This document shows, in pieces, positions 840 to 14,850 of a stretch of 23,381 nt of DNA. The stretch is taken from IMG/VR virus record IMGVR_UViG_3300051212_001621, positions 1-23,381 of that record. One strand, 5' to 3'. The position numbers and the translations under genes are program-made. Below the pieces are notes generated by a model. The model ran no database searches. It saw nothing but the letters and a program-made list of their open reading frames with translations, and had not been told where the DNA came from. The stretch comes from a virus. Positions within the stretch are counted from its first letter, which is position 1, and each line of letters opens with the position of its first letter.

Positions 840-903
840 ATATTTAAGGGCGCCAAGCGAAAAGTTTGGGTCCTTCCTAACCTACAAAAGTATCCAGACG
901 ACC

Positions 904-912
904 GATAAATAT
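904..912 (+). promoter_or_regulatory. Late promoter, ATAAATA type
   Basis: gATAAATAt (core 905-911) matches the T4-like late promoter core (TATAAATA; cyanophage variants ATAAATA), recognised in T4 by gp55 with gp33/gp45. It lies after the terminator and about 60 bases before the first gene of the next block (973), in an otherwise empty 150-base gap (823-972) that also holds the inverted repeat at 913-936. Confidence 0.65.
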
Positions 913-936
913 ATTTGGAAAATCCAATTTCCAAAT
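913..936 (+). repeat. Perfect 9-bp inverted repeat in late leader
   Basis: ATTTGGAAA (913-921) and TTTCCAAAT (928-936) are exact reverse complements separated by ATCCAA. It begins two bases after the late-promoter core, so the expected transcript would start within or just upstream of it. It could be a 5' stabilising hairpin or a protein-binding palindrome. No T-run follows, so it is not a terminator. Confidence 0.6.
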
Positions 937-972
937 CATTGAAAAATAAAAAATTTCCCCCAGAAAAATATC

Positions 973-1158
973 ATGGAAAACTCGAATGAAGTTCTTTTAC
1001 AGTTATTGGCATTGAATCGCCGCATGGATGCCATTGAAAAAAAATTCACAGAGCTTGAGATGGATTTAAGGTTCAAGAATGACCCACAGAATGATCCTCT
1101 CAATGATCTTCCTGGTCGCGGCAAGACATCTGCGTTTGGTAAAATGATGGGACTATGA
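973..1158 (+). CDS. Small coiled-coil hypothetical protein, 61 aa
   Basis: ATG at 973 to TGA at 1156-1158. Residues 1-35 have regular hydrophobic spacing (VLLQLLALNRRMDAIEKKF) typical of an amphipathic helix or short coiled coil. The tail is polar and Asn/Asp/Pro-rich (NDPQNDPLNDLPGRGK), ending FGKMMGL. I do not recognise the family. It is the first gene after the late promoter at 905 and overlaps the next gene by ATGA, so translation is probably coupled. A Shine-Dalgarno is not obvious; the upstream sequence is mostly A/T with a CCCCC run. Its position in a late block before PAAR-like and baseplate genes suggests a virion or assembly role, but that is inference. The opposite-strand open frame here is a shadow. 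Confidence 0.6.
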   Translation: MENSNEVLLQLLALNRRMDAIEKKFTELEMDLRFKNDPQNDPLNDLPGRGKTSAFGKMMGL

Positions 1159-1421
1159 CAACACGATACGATTCAAATTTTTACGAAAAAATTCTAAGTA
1201 ACTTTGATGACTTTTGTAATGACTTTGAGGATGCTGCAGCAAAACGATTTTCAGGATTAGACGATGACTCAAGAATTCCAGTTACAAATGAACAAGTTCA
1301 ACGAGCAACTCCAGCAGTTGTCCGAGAGGTTGAACAAGATGGAGGAGAGGATCTCATCATTAGAACACCCCCAATTGATGTACAAACCCCCCCGCTCCCA
1401 GAATTACATGAAGTTGAATGA
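1155..1421 (+). CDS. Hypothetical acidic protein, 88 aa, overlapped by the next gene
   Basis: ATG at 1155 overlaps the preceding stop (ATGA); TGA is at 1419-1421. Residues 1-38 look like a helical acidic domain (FYEKILSNFDDFCNDFEDAA, then KRFSGLDDD). The rest is Pro/Val/Glu-rich and likely extended. From codon 37 onward the same bases also encode the next gene in the +1 frame. In the overlap, third positions of this frame are mostly A/T (about three quarters by my count), like the rest of the low-GC genes, which argues that this frame is genuinely coding to its stop. I do not recognise the family. Alternatives are that only the first 37 codons are used with a frameshift into the other frame, or that one of the two frames is not translated. 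Confidence 0.5.
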   Translation: MTTRYDSNFYEKILSNFDDFCNDFEDAAAKRFSGLDDDSRIPVTNEQVQRATPAVVREVEQDGGEDLIIRTPPIDVQTPPLPELHEVE

Positions 1422-1476
1422 AGCTTTAGATTTAATTTTCGATAAAATACATATTATTGGAAAGTACATGAGGTAA
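1264..1476 (+). CDS. Coiled-coil hypothetical protein, 70 aa, in alternative frame
   Basis: ATG at 1264 to TAA at 1474-1476. An AGGA at about 1253-1256 gives a good Shine-Dalgarno at seven-base spacing. Residues 1-34 are a strong heptad-type coiled coil (FQLQMNKFNEQLQQLSERL, then NKMEERISSLE). After a Pro-rich break the end is again helical (LNEALDLIFDKIHIIGKYM). The first 158 bases overlap the 88-aa gene in another frame; the last 55 bases are unique to this gene and remain protein-like, and its stop sits four bases from the Shine-Dalgarno of the next gene. Its helix resembles in style the 61-aa protein at 973, so the two may be related. Function is unknown; a small structural or assembly protein is plausible. 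Confidence 0.6.
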   Translation: MTQEFQLQMNKFNEQLQQLSERLNKMEERISSLEHPQLMYKPPRSQNYMKLNEALDLIFDKIHIIGKYMR

Positions 1477-1477
1477 T

Positions 1478-1843
1478 ATGCCAAATGTTGTTGGTACAGA
1501 GACAGTAGATACTTCAAGTACAGATGGAAACTGTTTATATCTTGCAAAAGCACTTGGAGGGGAACCTACGATATCCTCTAATGTACTTTTTGAGGGGGAA
1601 GAAGTTGAGTATTATCAGTCAACCGATATTCCAGAATCTGTCGATGGTGTAAAGATTAATCCTCTCATTCCAGCACCATGTCAACCAGGCAATCGAAGAA
1701 TCAATCCGACTGTTAACACGACAGTGTTCATTAATGGAAATCTTTTCGCAGTTAGTGGTGATCAAGCTTCGTTAATTACGGGAGCGACTACACCAAGACC
1801 CTTGACAGGTCCATACAAATATCCTACAATTATCATAGGTTAA
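1478..1843 (+). CDS. PAAR-like protein, candidate gp5.4 spike-tip homologue, 121 aa
   Basis: ATG at 1478 to TAA at 1841-1843, with GAGG four bases upstream. Around residues 72-96, NRRINPTVNTTVFINGNLF followed by AVSGD resembles the PAAR signature (V-x-x-NG-k-p-a-a-r-x-GD). PAAR proteins such as T4 gp5.4 cap the central spike and sharpen it for membrane piercing. The position, shortly before gp25-gp6-gp7-gp8, fits a baseplate part. Oddly, the protein has no histidine at all and just two Cys (19 and 68), whereas classical PAAR tips bind a metal through His/Cys. Either this is a divergent non-metal PAAR, or a beta-structured protein with a chance NG/GD motif. There is no signal peptide or membrane segment. 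The late promoter at 905 is the nearest upstream. PAAR assignment is moderate only. Confidence 0.6.
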   Translation: MPNVVGTETVDTSSTDGNCLYLAKALGGEPTISSNVLFEGEEVEYYQSTDIPESVDGVKINPLIPAPCQPGNRRINPTVNTTVFINGNLFAVSGDQASLITGATTPRPLTGPYKYPTIIIG

Positions 1844-2347: not shown

Positions 2348-2746
2348 GTGGCGAAGACGCTAACTCAAAATTTCAAAGATCTTAATCTTGGATTTAAGAA
2401 GCACCCCGTAACTGACGATTTGATGGTTACGAAGGATGAAGCTGCAATTAAACAAGCAATTGTAAGTTTGTTATTAACAGAAAGAGGCGAAAGACTATTT
2501 CAACCCGAATTGGGTGGTGGTCTTCGCCGTTTTTTGTTTGAACCTTTAGATTATGGAACTGCTGCATTGATTCAATCTGCAATTCGTGATGTTTTACAAA
2601 GATATGAACCACGCATTCGTATTGAATCGTTAAATGCATTTCCAAATCAAGATGAAGATGGATTTGATATTGAACTCACATTTAATATTATTGGTACAGA
2701 ATTTGCACCAATTCAAGTAGAATTCTTCCTGACTCGCACACGATAA
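2348..2746 (+). CDS. 25: Baseplate wedge protein gp25 (T4-like)
   Basis: GTG start at 2348, TAA at 2744-2746, 132 aa: the same length as T4 gp25 as I remember it. The family (gpW/gp25, related to type VI secretion TssE) forms the inner-baseplate wedge joint and helps initiate sheath assembly. Hallmarks seen are SLLLTERGERLFQPELGGG near residues 40-58, a helical middle (LIQSAIRDVLQ) and the E-P-R motif at 87-89 (RYEPRI), which T4 gp25 also has (NYEPRI), followed by a beta-rich C-terminus (FDIELTFNI). GTG was chosen because no in-frame ATG lies upstream after the previous gene and the length fits; no strong Shine-Dalgarno is visible. Its stop overlaps the gp6 start by one base (TAATG), so the two are translationally coupled. 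Confidence 0.95.
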   Translation: MAKTLTQNFKDLNLGFKKHPVTDDLMVTKDEAAIKQAIVSLLLTERGERLFQPELGGGLRRFLFEPLDYGTAALIQSAIRDVLQRYEPRIRIESLNAFPNQDEDGFDIELTFNIIGTEFAPIQVEFFLTRTR

Positions 2747-4551
2747 TGCCATACACACAGCTCAACAATTTAGACTTTAATGATATTAAAGTTGCTCTGA
2801 AGGAATATCTGAGATCAGAGACAGATTTTACTGACTATGATTTTGAAGGATCAACTTTAAGTCAGTTATTGGATGTATTGGCATACAATACTTATTACAC
2901 CGCCTTCAATGCAAATATGGTGGTAAATGAGTTATTTCTTGATTCTGCCACCTTAAGAGATAATGTTGTTTCTCTTGCAAAGCAATTAGGTTACACACCA
3001 AAGTCAATTACTGCATCAAGAGCAACTGTTAACTTTAATGTAGTATTTTCAAACAATCCTCCTCCATATGTTGTTCTAAAGAAAGGAAGCGGATTTATTA
3101 CAAATTATGATGATTCTACCTATCAATTTGTTGTACTAAACGATTATAGGGCAGAAGTTGCAAATAATGTTGCAACTTTCGAAAATATTGAACTTGTTGA
3201 AGGAACGATGATCACTACTAGAACTTTAGTAGAGACAAGTTTAAAGAATCAAAGATTTTTTATTGACAATCCAAGTGCAGATGTGAACACCTTGCTTGTT
3301 AAAGTTTTTCAATCAGCACAGTCAAGTGCATTTGAAGAATATTTAAGAGCTGATAATATTCTAGACCCAACTGTTGAATCAAACAGTCCTGTGTATTTTA
3401 TTAATGAAATTGAAGATTCTCGTTATGAAATTATATTTGGTGATGGCATCTTAGGCAGAAAGTTACAGAATAATGAAGTTGTTGAAATATCATACATCAA
3501 AACCAATGGTAAGGAAGTGAATGGAGCACGCACATTCCTCTTCAGCGGTGTCCTGGAAGACGATGGAGGCACTGTTGATGTACCATTCGTAGTGAATAAC
3601 ATCACAACGATTAGCAAGGCATCTGGGGGCGAGGATATTGAAGGTATTGACAAAATTAAATATCTTGCCCCAAAGTTTTTTTCTTCTCAGAATAGAGCAG
3701 TTACCAAAAGTGACTATGAAGTTATTGCTAGAAACATCTATCCAGCTACGAGTGACATTATTGTTTTTGGTGGCGAAGATCAAGAACCACCGCAATATGG
3801 AAAAGTTTTTCTAGCAATCAAACCATCGGATGCGTCGTTCTTATCAGCATACACAAAGAATGAGATTGTAAAGGCGCTTAAGAAGTATTCAGTTGGATCT
3901 GTTCGTCCTGTTCTTGTAGATCCATCAATTCTGTATGTTGAATTGACATCAGACATCTATTTTGATGGAACAAAGACTGAATTGCTTCCTCAGCAAATGG
4001 TTTCTAAAGTTACGAACTCTTTATTAGAATATCTCAAGACTTCTGCTACAGAAAAATTCAATGGGAAGTTTCGTTATTCTAAATTTGTTGCTGTGATCGA
4101 TGAGTCTGATCAAGCAATCAAATCTAATTTGACATCAGTAACAATGAGGAAAGATTTTTATGCTCAATTAAATTCTTCGTCATATTATGAGATTTGTTAT
4201 CAGAATGCATTTAAAGAAGATTGCGAAGAATCAGTTGTTTCATCTTCTGGATTTGTTGTCCTAGAATATCCAGAATACACTGTCTATTTGGAAGATAGAA
4301 GTGGTAAAATTGTCCTATATAGACTAGATTCAGTTACTGGCGAAAAAATTGTTTTAAACAATGCAGTTGGTGATGTTGATTACTTAAAAGGCGAAGTTAA
4401 ACTTTATGATTTAACTATCATTCAAGGTAGTTTTTCTGATAATCGCATCGAACTGAGAACAAAACCAGCATCATATGATATTTCTGTGAAAAGAGAAGTT
4501 TATCTAGATGTTGACATTGCAAAGAGTAAATTTATCGGATATAAAGAGTAG
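2746..4551 (+). CDS. 6: Baseplate wedge protein gp6 (T4-like, baseplate J family)
   Basis: ATG at 2746 overlaps the gp25 stop; TAG at 4549-4551 followed at once by a second TAG. At 601 aa it is close to T4 gp6 (660 aa). Gp6 dimers form the continuous inner ring of the baseplate and bind gp7 and gp53/gp25. The N-terminus has the family look: YTQLNNLDFNDIK, then DYDFEGSTLSQLLDVLAYNT around residues 30-50 and LRDNVVSLAKQLGYTPKS near 70-87. A J-like core follows with YEIIFGDGILGRKLQNNEVV from residue 227 and SYIKTNGKEVNG, then a helix-strand unit SDYEVIARNIYPA near 322-335. The gap to gp7 is only three bases. The last third (from about residue 490) contains a beta-rich stretch (VVLEYPEYTVYLEDRSGKI) I cannot match to a T4 feature. 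Confidence 0.93.
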   Translation: MPYTQLNNLDFNDIKVALKEYLRSETDFTDYDFEGSTLSQLLDVLAYNTYYTAFNANMVVNELFLDSATLRDNVVSLAKQLGYTPKSITASRATVNFNVVFSNNPPPYVVLKKGSGFITNYDDSTYQFVVLNDYRAEVANNVATFENIELVEGTMITTRTLVETSLKNQRFFIDNPSADVNTLLVKVFQSAQSSAFEEYLRADNILDPTVESNSPVYFINEIEDSRYEIIFGDGILGRKLQNNEVVEISYIKTNGKEVNGARTFLFSGVLEDDGGTVDVPFVVNNITTISKASGGEDIEGIDKIKYLAPKFFSSQNRAVTKSDYEVIARNIYPATSDIIVFGGEDQEPPQYGKVFLAIKPSDASFLSAYTKNEIVKALKKYSVGSVRPVLVDPSILYVELTSDIYFDGTKTELLPQQMVSKVTNSLLEYLKTSATEKFNGKFRYSKFVAVIDESDQAIKSNLTSVTMRKDFYAQLNSSSYYEICYQNAFKEDCEESVVSSSGFVVLEYPEYTVYLEDRSGKIVLYRLDSVTGEKIVLNNAVGDVDYLKGEVKLYDLTIIQGSFSDNRIELRTKPASYDISVKREVYLDVDIAKSKFIGYKE

Positions 4552-4554
4552 TAG

Positions 4555-7500
4555 ATGCCTAAGACTGCTAACCAGATTTCTCTTTTAATTGAGAATCAAC
4601 TTGCATCATTTATCACAGACGAGTATGAGCTTTTTACAAAGTTCGTACAAAAATACTATGAGCAGCAAGAATTAAGGGGTCAACCTCTTGATATCATTAC
4701 AAATCTTGAAACTTATAGAAATATTGATTTTTACGAGAAAGATATTCTCAATAAATTTACCAAGCTAACTCAGTTTCTACAGGATACTGATACTGTTATT
4801 AATGTAGAAACTACAAGTTCATTTCCTGATAGTGGATATTTGAAAATTGATGATGAAATTTGTTTTTACAAATCAAAAACAGAAACGCAATTTCTCGAAG
4901 TAAGTCGTGGCGTAAGTGGAAACACGACACTTGGAGATTTGTATACGAAGTCAATCTTTGTAACCACTCAATCAGATGACCATGTAAACGGATCATCTGT
5001 TTATAACATTAGTAATCTTTTTCTTTTTGCTCTTGTAAAGAGTTTTGAATCTCAATATCTTCCAGACTTCCCAATTTCATATCTGAATCAAGAAGTTGAT
5101 CAAAGAACTCTAATCAAGAATATTGCAGATTTCTATCAATCAAAAGGCACTAGTAATTCTGTCAAATTCTTATTTAAGTGTTTAATTCAAAGTGATCCAG
5201 AACCAGTAGTATATTATCCAAGAGATAATACGCTAAAAGCATCAGAATCCACTTGGAGAAGAAATTATTCTATTAAAGCTAATATCTTTTCAGCAAATCC
5301 AGATGATTTAATTGGTAAACAAATCATCCAAGATTTGGAAGGCAATTATGCTTCAGCAACAGTTGACAATGTTCTATTCAATGGAACATACGATGGTATC
5401 GATTTATATGAACTGATTCTTGCTGAAGAAACTGTTAATGGATCTTTCTTAACTTCATCAAAGACATTTTTAACATCTGCTGTTTCTGCAAACTCTTCTG
5501 TAGTAGATGTCTTCTCTACGCTTGGTTGGGGAGAATCTGGTAAGTTTCGCATTGAAAATGAAACCTTTACATTTGAAAAGAAGAATGTAAATCAGTTTTA
5601 TATCAAAACAAGATCTGGATCTGCTTCTTATTCTGCAAATACATTTGTATATGATTCTGCAAATGTTTTTATAGAAGATAATCCCATTTTAATTCTTGGA
5701 GTATTGTACACAGCAGTACCAAAGATTAAAGTTCCATATCTTTCTGCTGGTGAGCAAATTGAAGTTTCATCTCCTGGTTTTGTTACAATCGATCAAAAAA
5801 TCTTTGATTCCCAAAATAATCTAAGGTGGAAACTTTCTACATCAAAAGTTGCAGGACTACCAGATGTAAATGCAGATGTTTCTGGTGTATTTCAAGATGA
5901 AACTGATTACTATATTGCATCATCTGGATTTCCTTCACATTTTTTTAATTTAGATGTTCCTGTAAGAGATCAAAGACAATTAAGAATTATTCCAAAAAAT
6001 TCTGAACCAACTACAGAAATCTACAAAACAAACCAGGGAGATGTTGGCATTTTTGTAAATGGCATCGTTGCAATGGGTGCTAAAGACGAAGAACAAATTT
6101 TTTCTGGTCCAATTCAAAAAATCTCTGTGTTTGATAGAGGAAGTGGATATGCCAAGCCTCCATTTGTTTTAATTAATGGAGTTCCGAATCTTGCTCGTGC
6201 AAAAATGGCGGGGCAAGTTGTAGAATCTATTATTGTTGATGTCCCTGGAAATTACAATTCTACACCAAATGTAGAGATTGTTTCTGGCAGAAATGGTATC
6301 GTTGCACCTGTTATTACAAATGGAGAAATTACAAGTTTAGTTGTCACAAATCCAGGTCAATTTTATTCTTCTCCACCCATAATCAGAATTACAGACCTTG
6401 CTGGCAAGGGAAGATTTGCAGATTACACTTCTATTGTTTCTCCAGCTGGACAAATTACTGGGTTTATTCAAAGAAGAACTGGAAGTGGTTACACTGCTGA
6501 AAATATTCGTATTGATGTAATTCCAGTAGGAAGTGGTGCAAGAGCAAATGCTTCTGTAAAGAGTTGGACAAAAAACAGGTATTACAAGTATCAGTCTAAA
6601 CTAGATTCAAATAATGGTTATTACATTCCTAACAAAGATCAGTCTCTAGACTATGGTTATGCTTATTATGCTTCTCCAAATTATTTGAGAACAAATGATA
6701 CTGGTGTTGGACATTCTCCTATTTTGGGTTTTGCTTATGATGGAAATCCAATTTATGGTCCCTATGGATATTCAAATCCATTAAACTCTAGTAGTCAGAT
6801 TACTAGAATGACTTCTAGTTATAGTAAGAATATTTCTAGACAAAATGGACCATCAGTATCTCAGTATCCACTAGGAACTTTCTTTGAAGACTATACTTAC
6901 ATTCATAAGCTTGGTTCTTTAGATCAAAACAATGGTAGATTTTGCGTAACACCAGATTTTCCAAATGGAACATATGCATATTTTATCACTGTAGATTCTT
7001 CCAATGATCCAGTATTTCCATATATTATTGGAGATAACTACTATTCGATTCCTAGAGATTCAAACTACAATCAAAATATTTCTCAATCAGATATTCCAAA
7101 AAATGTAATCAGACTCAGAACTGCAGACATTGAAAAGAATGGTGACTTAACCAAACTTTTAATTGATGAAGTAGAAAGAGGAACTGTTACATCTGGCATA
7201 TCCGTTTCTAGTCAACCAAACTTTTCGGTTGGTTGTAAATTAGAAATTGATAATGAATCAACTGGTGGTTATGATGCATCTGCAGAAGTTTCATCGGTAA
7301 AAGGAAAAACAGTTCTATCAATTGAATCACAATCAACCAAATGTTTATTGATTGATCTTTCAACAACCGCGTATCTTTTTGATGGGGACATAATCACACA
7401 AAATGTCACTGGAGCTACTGGTGAAATTGTTGGGGATGTGTTTTCTGGAACAAAATTTGCTCTTAGAAATGTATCTGGAGATTTTTCTAATGGAGATACT

Positions 7501-10500
7501 CTCAGTTCGAGCACTTCTGTTGTCAATTTAATTCTAGACAAAAATTCATCCTATACAGTTGGTGCAGTATTGCAACTAACAGATGGAAAAGTCTCGATTA
7601 TTGCACAAGGAGAAGTTTTAGAATCCACTGTCGGTAAAAACACTGTTAAGGTTAAAGTTAACTCTGGTCAGTTTGTTCCAACTGATGGTTACTATATTAA
7701 GAGCTCCAATCTATTTGATACTCCTGGTTCTGAGTTGTTAGATGTTAATTCTCTAAGTAGCAACTTAAGAATTTTTGAAATTACAGATAATGTAGCAATT
7801 TTAAAAACAGCAGATGCCCATGGTGTTGGCATTGGTGATAAAATCACTGTAGACATTAATCCCAATGATGCTCAAACAACCACAAATTATTATGTAAGAA
7901 GTAGAATATTCCAAAAAATTAAATTTGAATCTCCAGGTGCATCAACTACAATTAATGACAGTGGTATTGGAAGACTATCTCTTCTAAATTCTGGAGAAAA
8001 TTACACTCCTGGAACTTATCAAAATATTGCTTTAGTTGGTGGATCTGGATCTGGAGCAAAAGCAAATATTACAGTTTCTTTTCAAGGAAAAGTAACTCAA
8101 TTTACTATTGTTGATAAGGGAGAAAATTATAGCAAGTATGATATTCTTACTGTAGGAAATTCTGCTTTATTGAAAACAAATTCTTCTACTCCGTCATTAA
8201 AATTATCTGTAGATCATGTTGGACTCGCTCTTCAAGAAAATAAGATTAAAGTTTCCAGTGGCATTGGATTTACAGATGATGATTTTATCAAAATTGGAAA
8301 TGAAATTGTAAAGATTGTCAATAGAACTGGTGATACCTTTACAGTATTGCGTGGACAAAAATCAACAATTGCTATCGATCATTTTGATGGTGCATCTGTA
8401 GAGCTTTTTGATCCTGGTTTTGATCTGCCAAAGGGATTACCACTTGGTCAATCAGTACAAGATCCAAAAATCGAACAATACAATCCAATTACACAAGAAG
8501 CTGAGGTTGTATTTGAATATGGTCAAACACTGGATACTATCAATGCTGTATCTTTGAGTACGGTATTTTTTGATGTAAGTGCTGACACTCGTTTAGTCAG
8601 AGTTGTACAAATTGAAGATCCTATTGAGGTCTTTATTTTTTCAAAAGACAATACCAACTTCATCAGAAATCCTGAAATTGAAATTAAAGAATTTTACAAA
8701 TATAGATTTAATGTCTCCCATTCTTCTATGAATGGAAGAAGTTTTGATATTTCTCCAAGCATTAGTTATAATATTGAGACCCCAGAAAAGATCGACTTAG
8801 GATCAATTGTAGATTTAAAGATTGGTTTTGGTTCAAGAGTATCAACAAATCTATATTCAAATAAGATTCAAAGTAGATATTCTAAGTATTTCTATTATGA
8901 TCGCAATAGAATTACTTCTTCCGAATCTGGCTATTTCAAAGTAATTTCAGATCCTTTGCAGGGCGAGAAAGATTCTTTATATGTAACCGATACAAGTATT
9001 GTGTATGATACAAAAGTATTTGCTCCTCATGATGGTAGTGGTAGTATTTCATATACATCAAAATCTAGATTTTCAATTGGTGAGATAGATACGATTGAGG
9101 TTACCAATATTGGTTCTGAGTATAAAAAAATTCCAATTGTGATTGGAGCATTGCCTACAGAATCATATAGAGCTTCTGCAATTGTAGATATCTCAAATGG
9201 TTCTATTTCTGGTGTACGAGTAATTTCTGGAGGAAGTAATTATTCAAATCCAAGGGCCGTAGTTGATGGAAATGCAGTTCTTGATGTTGTGGTGGATAAT
9301 GGTATAATTACTGGCGTTTTAATTAAACATCCTGGATCTGGATATAATTCCATCCCAGAAGTTAGAATTGTGGAGACTGATGTAAAAATCTATTTGGAAA
9401 GTGAAGATATTGGATTGCCAAGAAATATAAGAATCATCTCAAACGGTGGGTCATATCATACCGATTCTACACTAAGATCTTCATTAAGATCAAATTATGT
9501 TTTTACCGTTTCTAACTTTAGTTCAAATGGATTTGCTTTGGGAGAATCTGTAGTTCAGATTACAGATGGTGTTGAAACTGCCAGAGCTAAAGTTTCTTCT
9601 TGGAGAAATGGTTCGAATATTTTAATTGTTAAGGATGTCACTGGTCTTTTTAGGGAAGACAAAGAGATTATTGGTTTAGCAAGAAGAACTACTGCAAATC
9701 TTGATAGAATTAGATACGCTGAGTTTGAACCAACAATTAAAACATATTTTGATAATATTGGATCATTCGAAGATGATCAGGGAATTGCAAGTTCTTCAAA
9801 TCAAAAAATTACTGATACTTATTATTATCAAGATTACTCGTATGTAGTAAAATCAAGAACTCCAATTAATGTTTGGAGAGATTTAATCAAGCAAACTACA
9901 CATCCAGCTGGATTCCAATTATTTGGAGAAGTTTTGATTGAATCTGATGCTGACATCAGCATGTCAAATAATTCTAAGACTGTTGCTACTAGCGTTATTC
10001 AGTTATGGGATCCTTTAAAAAATAAAATTAGTGTGGTTAGCACCAGAAAAAATATTATAACATCGATAATTAAAACGGAACAACTTAAAGTTGAAAAAGG
10101 TTCTGGATCTATCGCATTAGATACTTTTAGCACAACAGAAATCCGAGCAAAGCGTGTTTATCTGAATGCTGCATTTGATGGAGCATTTACAGATAAAGGA
10201 AATCTTGAAGGAACACAATCATTTGTATTGATTGATGATGATGGCGCGGTCGTTTCTCCATATAATGAACAGGCATTAACAATAACATTAGATGGCATTT
10301 TACAGGAACCTGGATCTGCATATCAAGTTAATGGAAGTATTATAACATTTGCTTCTCCTCCACTTGGTCCAAGCACAGAAGATGGTCAAGAAGTACCTGG
10401 AGTAATATTCTATGGAAGACTATTTGAGTTCAAGAGAGCAGATCTTAATGAAAGATATTTGAAAAAAATTAGAAACATTTATCAAAGATCTGGTACTTGG

Positions 10501-13500
10501 ATTGATGCAGCAAATCAATTAGCAATGAACAAAGCGTTCATTCAATCCGAGACTCTTGGTTATATTAGAGAAAAATATCCAACACTTTCTTGGGGAACTT
10601 TAAGTACAAAATGCTATCGTGATATTGGACTAGTTATTGAAGCACTAGAGCATGATTTGAGATTTGGTGGAAATTTAAAGACAATTGATGCTATTGAATC
10701 ATATTTTGTAGGAGGTACTTTATCTTATATTGATGGAGAGATTCAAGCATCAATTGATGCTTATTCGTATGCAACTAGATTGTGCAAAATTGCAATGAGA
10801 AACTGGGATGTTGTCGAGCGTCAAGCTTCTTGGACTTCGGGGACAGACATTATTGAAATTACAAATACTGATAATGTTGCAATAGGAATGAAGATTAGTG
10901 CTGGCAGAGCTTTTTCGGATACTACAGTAATTCAAGAAATTATTGATAGCAGGACACTTCGTTTAAGTGAAAACTCACTTCCAGGAAATAATATTCCAAA
11001 TGAAAATGCCCAGGTTACATTTATTTGGAGTGGATTAAATACTGGCACTTTTTATGATGCTGCTACTTTAATTGAAAGAAACAAAGAAAATATTCAAAGA
11101 GAAGCATCACATAGAATTTATGATGAATATCCAAAATTTACATATCCAGGTGTTCCCGAGGAAGCATTTAGATTTAAGGATGGTAGAAGATTAATTTATG
11201 AAAATCTTAACAATATTGTATTGGCAGTTATTTCCGAATTGGGTAGTACATTTGGTCCTCAATATGCAACAGATTCTTGCGCCAGAGATTTAAAAATTAT
11301 TCTTTCTGGAATTGCTGAAGATTTGGGTAGAGGATCAAATTCTAACACAATTTTTAATACAAAGGAGTATTTCTTAAATCATGATGCTTTGGAAGGAGAA
11401 GTAACAGAATCTGTCTATGCTTTTGAATATGCAAGAGAGCTTTGCATTGAAGCAATTAATAATAGAGGTTCTTATCAAGATCCAAATATTATTCTTGTTC
11501 CTGACTGCACCAATGTTAATTCTGCAATCACTGTTCTATTTGATATATTAATTGATGCCATTTCTTCAAATACTCAACCAAATATTCCAATTAATACTGG
11601 GATTGTATCCTGGACAAGATCAGAGGATTTCTGTTTTAGAGATACTGGAATCCTAGTAGATGCTGTTGTCTATTCTCTGAGATATGGTGGTAATCAAAAA
11701 ATTGTAGAATTTGCAAATGCATATTTTAATAATTACAAAATCAATCATATCGGAAACGAATTATTAGAGACAATCTATGCATACAATGTTGCAAGAGATT
11801 TGATGATCCTTGCAATGAGGAATCAAATCTCTGGATCAACAATTGTATTTCCATATACAAATTTAGATATTCGTATTGATACACAATCTCCCTATTGTGT
11901 TGAAGTAGAAAGTGCTATTGCCAACTATGCACAAATTGTTGAAGATATTTTAAAAGGAGGTCCAGATAGATTAGATATTGTTCCCGAGAATGAATCTTCA
12001 ACTGGAAATTGGACATCTTTGAGAGTGTATGTCAATAAAAATATTTTACCAGATCAAAATCTACTAAATGGCGTATTCAGAGAGTGTGAAGAGGTTGCTT
12101 CATCTTTAGATTCATTAAATGAAGTAATAAGAAATATCTTAATTACTGGTCCTGGAGCAGTAGAAAAAACAAATCCAGATTATGTTGATAATGAAAATAA
12201 AGAATTTGATCTATATTATCTCGATGGATCACCAGTGATCACTGAAGAGAACGAAAATTTATTCATTGCAATCAGTGGAATTCTACAACACGAACAAGCA
12301 TATTTTATTGATAAATCTCAAACTCCAAACAAAGTAGTTTTTAGTGGAGCTCCAATTTGGGGTCAAGAAGAAAATGTTAAAACTGTTCAAGAACCTCTTG
12401 CAGTAGAAAATATCGCATTACATGGTGTTGGAAATTACATTCGATGTGAATTAGACACATCAGGAATTTTAGATGGATCATCTGGTCCTTTCATTATTCT
12501 AAACACTTCAACAAAAGAGGTTAGAAATATTGATGATTCCAATTATGCACTTGTATTCATAGATGGAATTCTTCAGAGAGAAGGAGACTCTTACACTATT
12601 AATGGTCCAGCAATTAATTTCTCAAGAGACATCTATAAAGAAAATAATGTAGAGATTATTCTTCTATATGGACGAGATATAGAACAAAGTATCACATTAC
12701 ACGATTTTGAACCAACAACCTACTTCAACCGACTAACATTAACAATTTCCGATACATCTCCAAATGATTATACTGATTTGTTTACTTGGTTTAATACAAA
12801 TTATGATAATGAAACTTTTGCATACCAGAAAGATGGATCTAATAAAAATCTAATTGGTAAAATTAAGAGGGTATATAAAGTTAACAACAATACTGTAGAA
12901 CTAGTTCTTTCTGGAAATAATCCAATTTTCAATGGAAGCGAGCCAATTTATGGATCTACTGATTATATCAACTTCAGTGATGAGACAATTTTTGGAGGAA
13001 CATCTGCAACATTAGTTTATGCGTTAGATGAATTTGGGAATCGTAGAATGCAGAGAGATTCTTCTGCATGGTTATTTGATAGTATAAAATCAGATGAATC
13101 ATTCTATGTTCAAAGAAATCTATTAGCAAGGTTGAATGCTGGAGATTCTGTAAAAATTGATGGCGAAAAGAGTTATAGAGAAATTAAAAAATTACCTCAA
13201 TATGTAAATCCAAAAGATTATAATGCAGGTGCAGATATTTCTTCTAAGTTTTATGGTTCAATTATCACAACAAATTATAATGGTTCAACAAAAGGAGTTG
13301 GACTAAGTGCAACATGTGAAATCAATGCAGAAGGAGAAGTAATTAATATTGAATGGAATAGAAAGGATTTAAATCTCTACTACCAGCAAAACATTTTACA
13401 AAAGACAACCGCATATGGTTATGAAACTCCCCCAGTCTTGCATTTTATTCCAGTCAATCAATCTGGAGGTGGAGCTTCTGCTGAGGTAATTGTATCCAAG

Positions 13501-14850
13501 GAACAAATTGTTGATATTGTAATTACAAATAAAGGATCTGGTTATACAGAAGCGCCAAAAATTGTTGTCGCTAGAAGATATAATTTAATTAAAGGTAATA
13601 ATAGAAAAATTGATTCTCTTGTTAACATAAGATTTGCAAATAAGATTCAAAAACAATCTCCAGTATCTGCAAATATTGTATTCGAATTTTCTAGAGGAAT
13701 TGAGTCTATAACTGCGTTTGCAGCTGCAATCACAATTCCAGAAAATAAACCAACTATTTACACAACACTTAATAAAGTAGTAAATCTTGAGAATTTAGTT
13801 ATTTCGAAAGAAATCATTAAATTTGGTCCAACTTCAACTGGTTCCGTATCCATGTTCGGACCAAACGAAAACTCTCCAAAAATTTACAGAACATTTTTAC
13901 TTGATAGAACCGTTGAATCTCAACCATTACTATCAACTAAAGTTGAAAGATCATTTGCTATAGAAACTGGATTTATTGATTTAACAAATCCATTCTCATA
14001 TAGACGAAATTATTCTTCTGGTATTGCTGGACCAGCAGCACCACAATGGAGACCTTTTACCGATTGTGGAAACATCTTATCAACATCAGGAATTCCAGTT
14101 TCTGGTGTTACAATTGAAGAATTGGAAAGATATGGATTTACAATTGAACAGTTAAACAATGCTGTTGTTTCTGGTGGAATTTTTGTTGATGGTGATAAGT
14201 TTAATCTGGCAACTTCATCCATCAATAATTACCTAGTAAGATTGCAAACTTCGCCACTTCCAGATAGAGGAGACTTTACTCCCACCTTACTTGATTCTTC
14301 TTATGTTTCATCATCTGGATATGGAGATCCGACACCAGATGGATATTATGTTGTATTAAATAATGTCATTTACCTTTATATCGCAAATAGTAGCGGGTTG
14401 CCAATTATCAATACTTTCCGTCAAAATATGACAGGAACTGATATTTGGATTGATTGGGGCGAGGGTAGTTTTATCGGTGGTAGATATTCAAATAACAATC
14501 TTACTGGATTTGCAAACTCTCCATATGAAAATAGAATAACTGCTGGCCAGTTTGACTTATTCAATGATGGTTCTCAAGCTGGAGTTGTACTAATTCCAAC
14601 AACACCAGTTCCAAATGGTATTGGAAGATTCAATAGAATCGGGAATTATGATGTTACTTTCAGTCCAACAAATGTGATTGTTTATTGTGACACCGCACGA
14701 TTCCCAACATCTGGAACAATATTAATCAACAAAGAGCAGATTACTTATACAAGTAAGTTGTCGGATCGTCTTCTTGGTTGCACACGCGGTGCCAATGGTA
14801 CTCCTATTGGAACACATGTGGTAGGAGATTACATTAGATTGCTTCAATAA
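4555..14850 (+). CDS. 7: Giant baseplate wedge protein gp7 homologue, 3431 aa, multi-domain
   Basis: ATG at 4555, three bases after gp6; TAA at 14848-14850. T4 gp7 (1032 aa) starts wedge assembly by binding gp10 and later gp8 and gp6. Two blocks match what I recall of T4 gp7: residues 192-255 (DFYQSKGTSNSVKFLFK, then DDLIGKQI; T4 has DFYSTKG..KFLFK..DLVGQ) and 1752-1795 (YVVKS, WRDLIK at 1774, HPAGF at 1783; T4 HPVGF). About 1500 residues lie between them. Other modules seen: 'sG-x-I-x-x-E' units at about 85-135, 316-372, 1229-1288 and 3376-3431; GSGY repeats at 526-660, 1144-1200, 1516-1640 and 2990; a YHYH domain at about 675-832 (GHSPILGFAYDGNPIYGPYG from 719; NGRFCVTP at 793); GILQ units near 1909, 2570 and 2665; three helical repeats at 2020-2423. 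No signal peptide or membrane segment. Identity as gp7 is strong by synteny and motifs; the extra domains may be surface decoration or fibre attachment. Confidence 0.88.
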   Translation: MPKTANQISLLIENQLASFITDEYELFTKFVQKYYEQQELRGQPLDIITNLETYRNIDFYEKDILNKFTKLTQFLQDTDTVINVETTSSFPDSGYLKIDDEICFYKSKTETQFLEVSRGVSGNTTLGDLYTKSIFVTTQSDDHVNGSSVYNISNLFLFALVKSFESQYLPDFPISYLNQEVDQRTLIKNIADFYQSKGTSNSVKFLFKCLIQSDPEPVVYYPRDNTLKASESTWRRNYSIKANIFSANPDDLIGKQIIQDLEGNYASATVDNVLFNGTYDGIDLYELILAEETVNGSFLTSSKTFLTSAVSANSSVVDVFSTLGWGESGKFRIENETFTFEKKNVNQFYIKTRSGSASYSANTFVYDSANVFIEDNPILILGVLYTAVPKIKVPYLSAGEQIEVSSPGFVTIDQKIFDSQNNLRWKLSTSKVAGLPDVNADVSGVFQDETDYYIASSGFPSHFFNLDVPVRDQRQLRIIPKNSEPTTEIYKTNQGDVGIFVNGIVAMGAKDEEQIFSGPIQKISVFDRGSGYAKPPFVLINGVPNLARAKMAGQVVESIIVDVPGNYNSTPNVEIVSGRNGIVAPVITNGEITSLVVTNPGQFYSSPPIIRITDLAGKGRFADYTSIVSPAGQITGFIQRRTGSGYTAENIRIDVIPVGSGARANASVKSWTKNRYYKYQSKLDSNNGYYIPNKDQSLDYGYAYYASPNYLRTNDTGVGHSPILGFAYDGNPIYGPYGYSNPLNSSSQITRMTSSYSKNISRQNGPSVSQYPLGTFFEDYTYIHKLGSLDQNNGRFCVTPDFPNGTYAYFITVDSSNDPVFPYIIGDNYYSIPRDSNYNQNISQSDIPKNVIRLRTADIEKNGDLTKLLIDEVERGTVTSGISVSSQPNFSVGCKLEIDNESTGGYDASAEVSSVKGKTVLSIESQSTKCLLIDLSTTAYLFDGDIITQNVTGATGEIVGDVFSGTKFALRNVSGDFSNGDTLSSSTSVVNLILDKNSSYTVGAVLQLTDGKVSIIAQGEVLESTVGKNTVKVKVNSGQFVPTDGYYIKSSNLFDTPGSELLDVNSLSSNLRIFEITDNVAILKTADAHGVGIGDKITVDINPNDAQTTTNYYVRSRIFQKIKFESPGASTTINDSGIGRLSLLNSGENYTPGTYQNIALVGGSGSGAKANITVSFQGKVTQFTIVDKGENYSKYDILTVGNSALLKTNSSTPSLKLSVDHVGLALQENKIKVSSGIGFTDDDFIKIGNEIVKIVNRTGDTFTVLRGQKSTIAIDHFDGASVELFDPGFDLPKGLPLGQSVQDPKIEQYNPITQEAEVVFEYGQTLDTINAVSLSTVFFDVSADTRLVRVVQIEDPIEVFIFSKDNTNFIRNPEIEIKEFYKYRFNVSHSSMNGRSFDISPSISYNIETPEKIDLGSIVDLKIGFGSRVSTNLYSNKIQSRYSKYFYYDRNRITSSESGYFKVISDPLQGEKDSLYVTDTSIVYDTKVFAPHDGSGSISYTSKSRFSIGEIDTIEVTNIGSEYKKIPIVIGALPTESYRASAIVDISNGSISGVRVISGGSNYSNPRAVVDGNAVLDVVVDNGIITGVLIKHPGSGYNSIPEVRIVETDVKIYLESEDIGLPRNIRIISNGGSYHTDSTLRSSLRSNYVFTVSNFSSNGFALGESVVQITDGVETARAKVSSWRNGSNILIVKDVTGLFREDKEIIGLARRTTANLDRIRYAEFEPTIKTYFDNIGSFEDDQGIASSSNQKITDTYYYQDYSYVVKSRTPINVWRDLIKQTTHPAGFQLFGEVLIESDADISMSNNSKTVATSVIQLWDPLKNKISVVSTRKNIITSIIKTEQLKVEKGSGSIALDTFSTTEIRAKRVYLNAAFDGAFTDKGNLEGTQSFVLIDDDGAVVSPYNEQALTITLDGILQEPGSAYQVNGSIITFASPPLGPSTEDGQEVPGVIFYGRLFEFKRADLNERYLKKIRNIYQRSGTWIDAANQLAMNKAFIQSETLGYIREKYPTLSWGTLSTKCYRDIGLVIEALEHDLRFGGNLKTIDAIESYFVGGTLSYIDGEIQASIDAYSYATRLCKIAMRNWDVVERQASWTSGTDIIEITNTDNVAIGMKISAGRAFSDTTVIQEIIDSRTLRLSENSLPGNNIPNENAQVTFIWSGLNTGTFYDAATLIERNKENIQREASHRIYDEYPKFTYPGVPEEAFRFKDGRRLIYENLNNIVLAVISELGSTFGPQYATDSCARDLKIILSGIAEDLGRGSNSNTIFNTKEYFLNHDALEGEVTESVYAFEYARELCIEAINNRGSYQDPNIILVPDCTNVNSAITVLFDILIDAISSNTQPNIPINTGIVSWTRSEDFCFRDTGILVDAVVYSLRYGGNQKIVEFANAYFNNYKINHIGNELLETIYAYNVARDLMILAMRNQISGSTIVFPYTNLDIRIDTQSPYCVEVESAIANYAQIVEDILKGGPDRLDIVPENESSTGNWTSLRVYVNKNILPDQNLLNGVFRECEEVASSLDSLNEVIRNILITGPGAVEKTNPDYVDNENKEFDLYYLDGSPVITEENENLFIAISGILQHEQAYFIDKSQTPNKVVFSGAPIWGQEENVKTVQEPLAVENIALHGVGNYIRCELDTSGILDGSSGPFIILNTSTKEVRNIDDSNYALVFIDGILQREGDSYTINGPAINFSRDIYKENNVEIILLYGRDIEQSITLHDFEPTTYFNRLTLTISDTSPNDYTDLFTWFNTNYDNETFAYQKDGSNKNLIGKIKRVYKVNNNTVELVLSGNNPIFNGSEPIYGSTDYINFSDETIFGGTSATLVYALDEFGNRRMQRDSSAWLFDSIKSDESFYVQRNLLARLNAGDSVKIDGEKSYREIKKLPQYVNPKDYNAGADISSKFYGSIITTNYNGSTKGVGLSATCEINAEGEVINIEWNRKDLNLYYQQNILQKTTAYGYETPPVLHFIPVNQSGGGASAEVIVSKEQIVDIVITNKGSGYTEAPKIVVARRYNLIKGNNRKIDSLVNIRFANKIQKQSPVSANIVFEFSRGIESITAFAAAITIPENKPTIYTTLNKVVNLENLVISKEIIKFGPTSTGSVSMFGPNENSPKIYRTFLLDRTVESQPLLSTKVERSFAIETGFIDLTNPFSYRRNYSSGIAGPAAPQWRPFTDCGNILSTSGIPVSGVTIEELERYGFTIEQLNNAVVSGGIFVDGDKFNLATSSINNYLVRLQTSPLPDRGDFTPTLLDSSYVSSSGYGDPTPDGYYVVLNNVIYLYIANSSGLPIINTFRQNMTGTDIWIDWGEGSFIGGRYSNNNLTGFANSPYENRITAGQFDLFNDGSQAGVVLIPTTPVPNGIGRFNRIGNYDVTFSPTNVIVYCDTARFPTSGTILINKEQITYTSKLSDRLLGCTRGANGTPIGTHVVGDYIRLLQ
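6130..6525 (+). repeat. GSGY beta-repeat cluster in gp7 (four copies)
   Basis: Four consecutive copies of a 35-45-residue unit with a turn G-[SNQ]-[GYF]-Y followed by P-x-[IV]-x-[IV]: DRGSGYAKPP (residue 526), VPGNYNSTPNVEI (561), NPGQFYSSPPIIRI (597), RTGSGYTAENIRI (about 641). It is a protein-level repeat; DNA copies have diverged. Further copies lie near 7984, 8110, 9100-9440 and 13522. Confidence 0.75.
9100..9450 (+). repeat. GSGY beta-repeat cluster in gp7 (second cluster)
   Basis: Copies NIGSEYKKIPIVI (residue about 1516), SGGSNYSNPRAVV (1556), HPGSGYNSIPEVRI (1590) and a weaker NGGSYHTDST (1627), at 35-40 residue spacing, just before the HPAGF block of the gp7 core. Confidence 0.7.
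10612..11823 (+). repeat. Three copies of a ~63-residue helical repeat inside gp7
   Basis: Copies at 10612-10803 (residues 2020-2083), 11278-11463 (2242-2303) and 11632-11823 (2360-2423). Each starts C-x-R-D and follows with a helix, a [DS]-L-[RG]-[FYR]-G-[GS]-N turn, a Y-F, then E-x-x-x-[SI]-x-x-[AY]-x-x-x-A-R-[LD]-[CL], ending A-[MI]-[RN]-N. Copies 1 and 2 are preceded by a DAA-x-x-x-x-x-NK-x-x-I-Q module (residues 1984 and 2168); C-x-x-V-x-SAI modules follow copies 2 and 3. I have seen similar repeats in cyanophage tail and fibre proteins; function unknown. Confidence 0.8.

Follow-up and report, generated by a model that had tools for sequence, protein, structure and literature searches.

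Two open reading frames on one strand of a T4-like cyanophage fragment raise the question of whether the same nucleotides are used to encode two proteins. The fragment comes from IMG/VR (23,381 bases, termed the window) and carries gp25, gp6 and gp8-type baseplate genes downstream of the two frames, here called A and B. A sequence-only reading of this DNA had proposed that one frame was overprinted on the other, or else that a +1 frameshift near position 1260 joins the two products, and it had raised an indel near 1250-1270 as a possible artefact. The geometry that it described is correct, in that A and B have 158 nt in common and B lies in the +1 register (Table 1). Throughout this overlap, the third position of an A codon is the second position of a B codon, and the first position of an A codon is the third position of a B codon. 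The A/T-rich third positions ascribed to A are also confirmed within the overlap, with a GC3 of 0.21 in the window versus 0.19 in the reference genes (gp25, gp6, a giant ORF and gp8).

Table 1. Features at and around the A/B locus, in window positions
Feature	Position	Strand	Remarks
ATAAATA, late-promoter-like motif	905..911	+	within block TCCAGACGACCGATAAATATA, which precedes the A/B operon
61-aa ORF	973..1158	+	stop overlaps the start of A (ATGA)
ORF A, acidic, 88 aa, phrog_10663	1155..1421	+	ORF list, profile match
Shine-Dalgarno AGGA for B, within A	1253..1256	+	7 nt before the ATG of B
ORF B, predicted two-helix coiled coil, 70 aa, phrog_699	1264..1476	+	ORF list, profile match
Dual-coding stretch, 158 nt	1264..1421	+	A in frame 0, B in frame +1
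PAAR-type spike-tip candidate, next gene	1478..1843	+	phrog_11361; weak match to phrog_281 'PAAR motif'
gp25 baseplate wedge subunit	2348..2746	+	phrog_261, E 7.6e-47
gp6 baseplate wedge subunit	2746..4551	+	phrog_219, E 1.7e-204; used for tree

Setting and protein families of A and B

The pair is preceded by the sequence ATAAATA, which we take to be a T4-type late-promoter-like motif. Among the 72 loci with enough upstream sequence, this motif is found within 450 nt upstream of the FDxFC motif of A in 50 (compared with 14% in mononucleotide shuffles) and is missing from 22. The block TCCAGACGACCGATAAATA (window 890-960) is well conserved before A/B in many contigs, and this conservation extends beyond the bare promoter hexamer. 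On the other side of the pair, the PAAR-type candidate gene starts 2 nt past the stop codon of B, and in relatives the interval between A/B and the downstream baseplate genes may hold a gene for a protein of approximately 300-400 aa, or else a baseplate wedge gene of the phrog_719 family. Given the late-promoter-like block upstream and the PAAR-type, gp25 and gp6 genes downstream, we therefore infer, from position only, that A and B have a late, baseplate-linked role, in or beside baseplate assembly. Virion mass-spectrometry data sets are available for S-SM1, S-PM2 and Syn9 (PMC3037559). The 61-aa ORF that abuts A is present in close relatives of the window, but S-B43 and phages like it have no such ORF in front of A; profile searches gave no significant family match for it.

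Several other features of the window were recorded. Positions 643-822 encode a 59-aa HicA-like toxin (Pfam HicA_toxin, E 5.6e-8; phrog_353 'toxin'). The G+C content is 0.58-0.62 at positions 1-600, where there are small ORFs, versus 0.35-0.45 from 901 on, and this segment, which precedes the late operon, may be an island acquired from elsewhere. Between gp6 and the gp8-type gene lies a 3,431-aa ORF (4555-14850), with matches to several profiles of giant virion and baseplate proteins (phrog_4406, phrog_2885).

Each frame matches a protein family of its own, and both families are known but unnamed, with a function assigned to neither in PHROG. The A protein, whose N-terminus had been noted as acidic, has a net charge of -12 and a pI of 4.2, and matches phrog_10663 over its full length (E 3.7e-15; residues 8-78 to profile positions 8-79 of 83). 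Using tblastn, A was found in 25 of 50,697 phage records, all of them Synechococcus phages, and an IMG/VR profile scan gave 360 relatives, 80 of which were taken. AlphaFold2 predictions on 31 A sequences place helices at residues 9-15 and 17-32, with pLDDT values of 51-65 beyond residue 40. Thus the N-terminal helix with its conserved FDxFCxxFE motif is outside the overlap, and the C-terminal half, which is predicted to be disordered, is inside it. A sequence search of the PDB with A returned nothing significant.

The B protein likewise shows a full-length match, in this case to phrog_699 (E 4.9e-11; residues 3-68 to profile positions 11-77 of 80), which corresponds to T4-GC_393 of Syn33 and P-RSM4 and includes syn9 gp93. 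Searches by tblastn found 62 records with the window B as query and 219 with syn9 gp93; the IMG/VR profile scan gave 267 relatives, of which 80 were taken. The coiled coil previously proposed for B is borne out by AlphaFold2 (34 B sequences, mean pLDDT 83), which predicts a helix at residues 3-34, a linker and a second helix at 51-69. The linker carries the motif P-x-LMY-K/R-x-P. Searching the PDB with the B sequence recovered 85 sequences at E up to 1, generic coiled coils of which the best had an E of 7e-4, and a fold search against viral models gave 16 matches, none at E 0.001 or less.

Members of phrog_699 (Syn33_086, PRSM4_099 and syn9 gp93) have the same coil, a P-x-L-x-Y-K-P linker and the C-terminal helix of B, and the alignment to Syn33, a phage with B only, covers the whole length of B with the coil included (hhalign, 96.7%). 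Like the window B, these genes are located just upstream of baseplate genes. In the phages tested, syn9 and Syn33, B is followed by the phrog_719 baseplate wedge gene, unlike the arrangement in the window.

Conservation of the pair and of the start site of B

We collected 188 loci, a number that includes the window and leaves out one copy of it (L001). A is present in 181 of these loci, and the remaining seven comprise five phages with B only and two contigs that are cut inside the pair. Thirteen loci found later, eight of which were examined, are outside these counts. In every one of the 84 distinct sequences left after deduplication, no stop codon interrupts the +1 frame for at least 69 codons spanning the overlap, and all 61 distinct loci with both landmark motifs have the same +1 register. 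The overlap measures 137-179 nt in the IMG/VR loci, and the complete phage records with A that were examined are 186-214 kb in length. A DNA-level search of phages matched short pieces only. The A/B pair is common in marine cyanophages, with cultured isolates such as S-CAM4 and S-RSM4 among its carriers.

The sequence-only reading had named two findings that would speak against dual coding, namely homologues with one frame full of stop codons and relatives with a single fused frame. Both were looked for and are absent among relatives that carry A. The frame equivalent to A is full of stop codons (7-11) only in the five phages where B has no A over it (syn9, Syn33, S-8S29, P-RSM4 and metaG-MbCM1).

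The AGGA noted ahead of B is present (Table 1), and a TAG at 1258-1260 shuts the frame of B just upstream of its ATG. This ATG keeps its position in 81 of the 84 distinct sequences. Of these 81 loci, 69 have a Shine-Dalgarno match of 4 nt or longer ahead of the ATG; the corresponding count is 113 of 420 for control positions within the overlap and 24 of 72 for the starts of A. The window sequence around the start of B has unusually little structure (z +2.2) and folds less stably than all 200 shuffled versions.

The exceptions to the conserved ATG are L004 (Sf-CH1b), L019 (ACG-2014h) and L028, the last of which has its ATG further down. In Sf-CH1b and ACG-2014h, the coil of B is conserved and no ATG is found at the conserved place; therefore B must start elsewhere in these two. 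In both, an SD-like run precedes an ACG at this place, and an ATG is found further upstream, in the CDGFE codons, without an obvious SD.

Twelve loci of a short-A clade were examined, nine of which (L217, L218, L220-L223, L225, L229 and L230) have an A of 63-68 aa. Four of the 12 loci share an ATG for B that is missing from seven others, and in these seven the usable ATG lies further upstream. Two members, L028 and L216, have an A that reaches 83 aa past the usual stop, an apparent second lengthening over B. In one further locus (L219), an insertion of approximately 400 nt separates A (62 aa) from B, which is intact and has its own ATG at 1698. The insertion holds a 149-aa ORF (L219:1265-1714; phrog_35149) with a CxCC-type motif, and a short near-identical sequence (TTATGAACA...GATGG) is present on both sides of it. 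These flanking repeats suggest a mobile insertion that may have restored the start of B.

Gene annotations usually miss B. None of the 12 annotated A-carrying records examined has B at its full length; it is absent in seven and shortened in five (approximately 39 aa in ACG-2014e, i, j and S-CAM4, and 43 codons with a stop in S-CAM3). Gene finders suppress long overlaps, and A/B flags a systematic annotation gap in the cyanophage baseplate region.

Purifying selection on both frames

To measure constraint, 43 representatives were chosen from the 84 sequences at below 90% nucleotide identity. L028 was left out of the shuffles and of the OLGenie-like, slippery-site, codon-usage and B-only stop comparisons (it has an indel and a different B start), leaving 42 sequences; L004 and L019 were also left out of the comparison of A-equivalent stop codons and of GC3 in the +1 frame, as they lack an ATG at the conserved place. 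Among the 43 representatives, mean diversity at positions 1, 2 and 3 of A codons is 0.286, 0.194 and 0.460 in the part that encodes A only, and 0.418, 0.326 and 0.304 in the overlap. The third-position excess of A therefore vanishes exactly where a change at that position would alter the second position of a B codon.

Permuting synonymous codons with the A protein held fixed introduced a stop codon into the B frame of, on average, about 30 of the 42 sequences, compared with 0 of 42 observed. In the reciprocal experiment with B held fixed, a stop appeared in A in about 14 of 42, again with 0 of 42 observed. The +2 frame contains 227 stop codons spread over all 42 sequences. Amino acid identity was also higher than in the shuffled sets (0.556 versus 0.300 for B with A fixed, and 0.477 versus 0.289 for A with B fixed; none of the 200 shuffles gave a value as high as that observed, in one case or the other), a comparison that is inflated because shuffling destroys shared ancestry, with the control +2 frame also above its null. 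The stop counts and the OLGenie-like test do not rest on this identity part.

The latter test (dNN/dSN for A and dNN/dNS for B) is a simplified calculation of our own that follows the OLGenie approach, and with it the synonymous-site check that the sequence-only reading had suggested points to purifying selection on both frames. Among 30 independent pairs at 80-95% identity, the ratio is 0.43 (0.28-0.62) for A and 0.31 (0.20-0.44) for B, and in the same band the rate of changes that are synonymous in A and alter B is 0.28, compared with a dS of 0.82 in the non-overlapping part of A. For 37 independent pairs at 70-80% identity, the values are 0.79 (0.52-1.16) for A, which is not significant, and 0.33 (0.21-0.48) for B. 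Figures for all pairs cover 358 of 358 pairs in the 80-95% band and 400 of 1273 in the 70-80% band. On dividing the overlap (30 independent pairs), A and B give 0.39 (0.23-0.62) and 0.38 (0.23-0.60) in the proximal part, and 0.57 (0.33-1.02, not significant) and 0.19 (0.07-0.42) in the distal part. This regional split indicates that B is constrained throughout, and that A is clearly constrained in the proximal part and less surely at its tail.

From the sequence alone, then, both frames are open and conserved, B has a conserved start site, and purifying selection acts on both. These characteristics are best explained if A and B are two real, separately initiated overlapping genes in a late operon that flanks the baseplate genes, which we consider very probable, and we infer that both proteins are made. 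A late transcript would begin at the promoter-like site near 905, and ribosomes would translate A while others would initiate B at the AGGA-ATG (1253-1266) that lies inside A and continue in the +1 frame as far as 1476. The stop codon of A lies approximately 155 nt after the start of B, and therefore re-initiation after A is unlikely to yield B. The ratio of A to B would probably be set by internal initiation under the ribosome traffic of A.

Three other explanations for the coding pattern have been weighed. Frameshifts in tail-assembly-chaperone genes provide a model for an A-B fusion, in which ribosomes that start on A undergo a programmed +1 shift into the frame of B and join the acidic head to the coiled coil. 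The geometry permits such an event (A in frame 0, B in frame +1 and a long open overlap), and the absence of the usual ATG of B from Sf-CH1b and ACG-2014h accords with it. However, none of the 61 loci in +1 register is fused, slippery-type sites occur in just 3 of 42 representatives and are never shared, so that there is no conserved slippery sequence, the SD and ATG of B are conserved, and B stands alone in some phages and apart from A in L219. We consequently consider the shift near 1260 to be very improbable. We also reject a sequencing error or indel near 1250-1270, since the register is the same in 61 of 61 cases, drawn from independent metagenomes and from isolates.

There is similarly little likelihood that only one frame codes for protein and that chance or codon bias keeps the other free of stop codons. 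This proposal draws on the codon usage of B in the overlap, which is unlike that of the genome (correlation -0.10), and on the selection signal of A, which is not significant among distant relatives. Against it stand the lack of stop codons in either frame after so many were expected from permutation, the ratios below 1 for both frames with intervals that exclude 1 (80-95% band; proximal part), and the separate family matches of A and B. Finally, B might begin at the internal methionine of LMY (window 1378), which would reduce the overlap to approximately 44 nt, or to 26 nt in the ACG-2014e, i, j and S-CAM4 records. This start is the one used by GenBank for the 39-aa annotations, and the methionine is invariant in 34 of 34 relatives. 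In contrast, the B frame upstream of it lacks stop codons and is under purifying selection (the proximal ratio of 0.38), the phrog_699 match runs through the coil, and the SD and ATG are conserved. We rejected the internal start on the basis of the upstream selection, and regard it as highly unlikely.

Origin of the overlap and comparison with related systems

The two genes appear to differ in age. B would be a small coiled-coil protein that arose earlier, is widespread among T4-like cyanophages and is encoded just before the baseplate genes. The broader distribution of its family suggests that the disordered C-terminal half of A was overprinted on B, most likely on its conserved coil and P-x-LMY-K/R-x-P linker. 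We therefore think it probable that B is the older of the two in the overlap. Living relatives exhibit graded stages, with B alone, a short A, a long A and, in L219, one natural uncoupling. Proteins of phrog_11480 (S-CAM1, S-CAM3 and Marine virus AG-345-P14) share the N-terminal helix of phrog_10663, are mostly 62-68 aa long and overlap B over a shorter distance than does the window A. In a gp6 tree, the short-A phages (S-CAM1, S-CAM3 and AG-345-P14; support 100/99) neighbour the long-A phages (12 rows; 89/83), and a separate group is formed by those with B only (100/100). By this phylogenetic spread, the distal tail of A would be its newest part. S-B43 (MN018232.1) has a second, diverged gp6-like gene at 47954-49783 (42% identity) besides gp6 at 129437-131230.

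The reverse order is also compatible with dual coding. A could be older, with the N-terminal coil of B overprinted on it and A subsequently lost from B-only phages. Codon usage in the overlap correlates with that of the reference genes of the window (gp25, gp6, the giant ORF and gp8) at 0.83 for A, compared with the negative value for B, and the constraint on A is significant in the proximal overlap. This polarity test is biased in +1 overlaps because the first position of A is the third of B, but the GC3 of B is 0.67, compared with 0.45 for reference genes read in +1, and so the conflict between codon usage and phylogeny stands. Opposed to an older A are the wider spread of B (219 records versus 25), its homology through the coil in phages that lack A, the shorter A of the sister clade (62-68 aa in 9 of 11 loci with B in register 1), the variable distal tail of A and the stronger constraint on B in the distal overlap (0.19 versus 0.57). 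On balance, we consider an older A unlikely.

A more far-reaching reading, which we consider less likely than not, is that of a coupled pair, in which the internal start of B in translated A would fix how much of a coiled-coil baseplate factor is made relative to its acidic partner with a disordered tail. Growth of the overlap might have been stepwise in one cyanophage lineage (none, then short A, then long A), with A extending over the most conserved motif of B and later taking over the shared codon choice. If true, overprinting could be followed stage by stage in a large dsDNA phage. Phages with large genomes are not short of space, and long dual-coding stretches are uncommon in them. The graded stages and the cultured isolates make the origin and cost of overprinting directly testable.

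Same-strand overlapping gene pairs are a known kind, and A/B is another such pair. No description of it was found in literature on overlapping genes in cyanophages and phages, a body of work in which subscription journals were mostly outside coverage. Two-component spanins (Rz/Rz1 and the P2-type 'overlapped' form) are same-strand overlaps, often in +1, whose downstream gene is often unannotated (PMC6139136). A/B resembles them as overlapping same-strand genes of tailed phages with the downstream gene missed. Identity as a spanin pair was rejected: neither protein has a transmembrane stretch (maximum Kyte-Doolittle mean over 19 residues of 0.08 for A and 0.48 for B) or a lipobox, B has no Cys and A has a single Cys, in FCND. 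The neighbourhood of A/B is the baseplate, whereas that of spanins is lysis.

The pair is similar to overprinted viral genes generally (PMC8227390, PMC8903798), in that the narrower-ranging protein is predicted to be disordered in the overlap and both frames are constrained; disorder is expected in the overprinted protein (PMC8227390). DNA-virus overlaps are mostly short, with a median of per-genome means of 15.6 nt (IQR 8.5-61; PMC8903798). The overlap of 137-179 nt in these phages of 186-214 kb is longer than is usual for DNA viruses.
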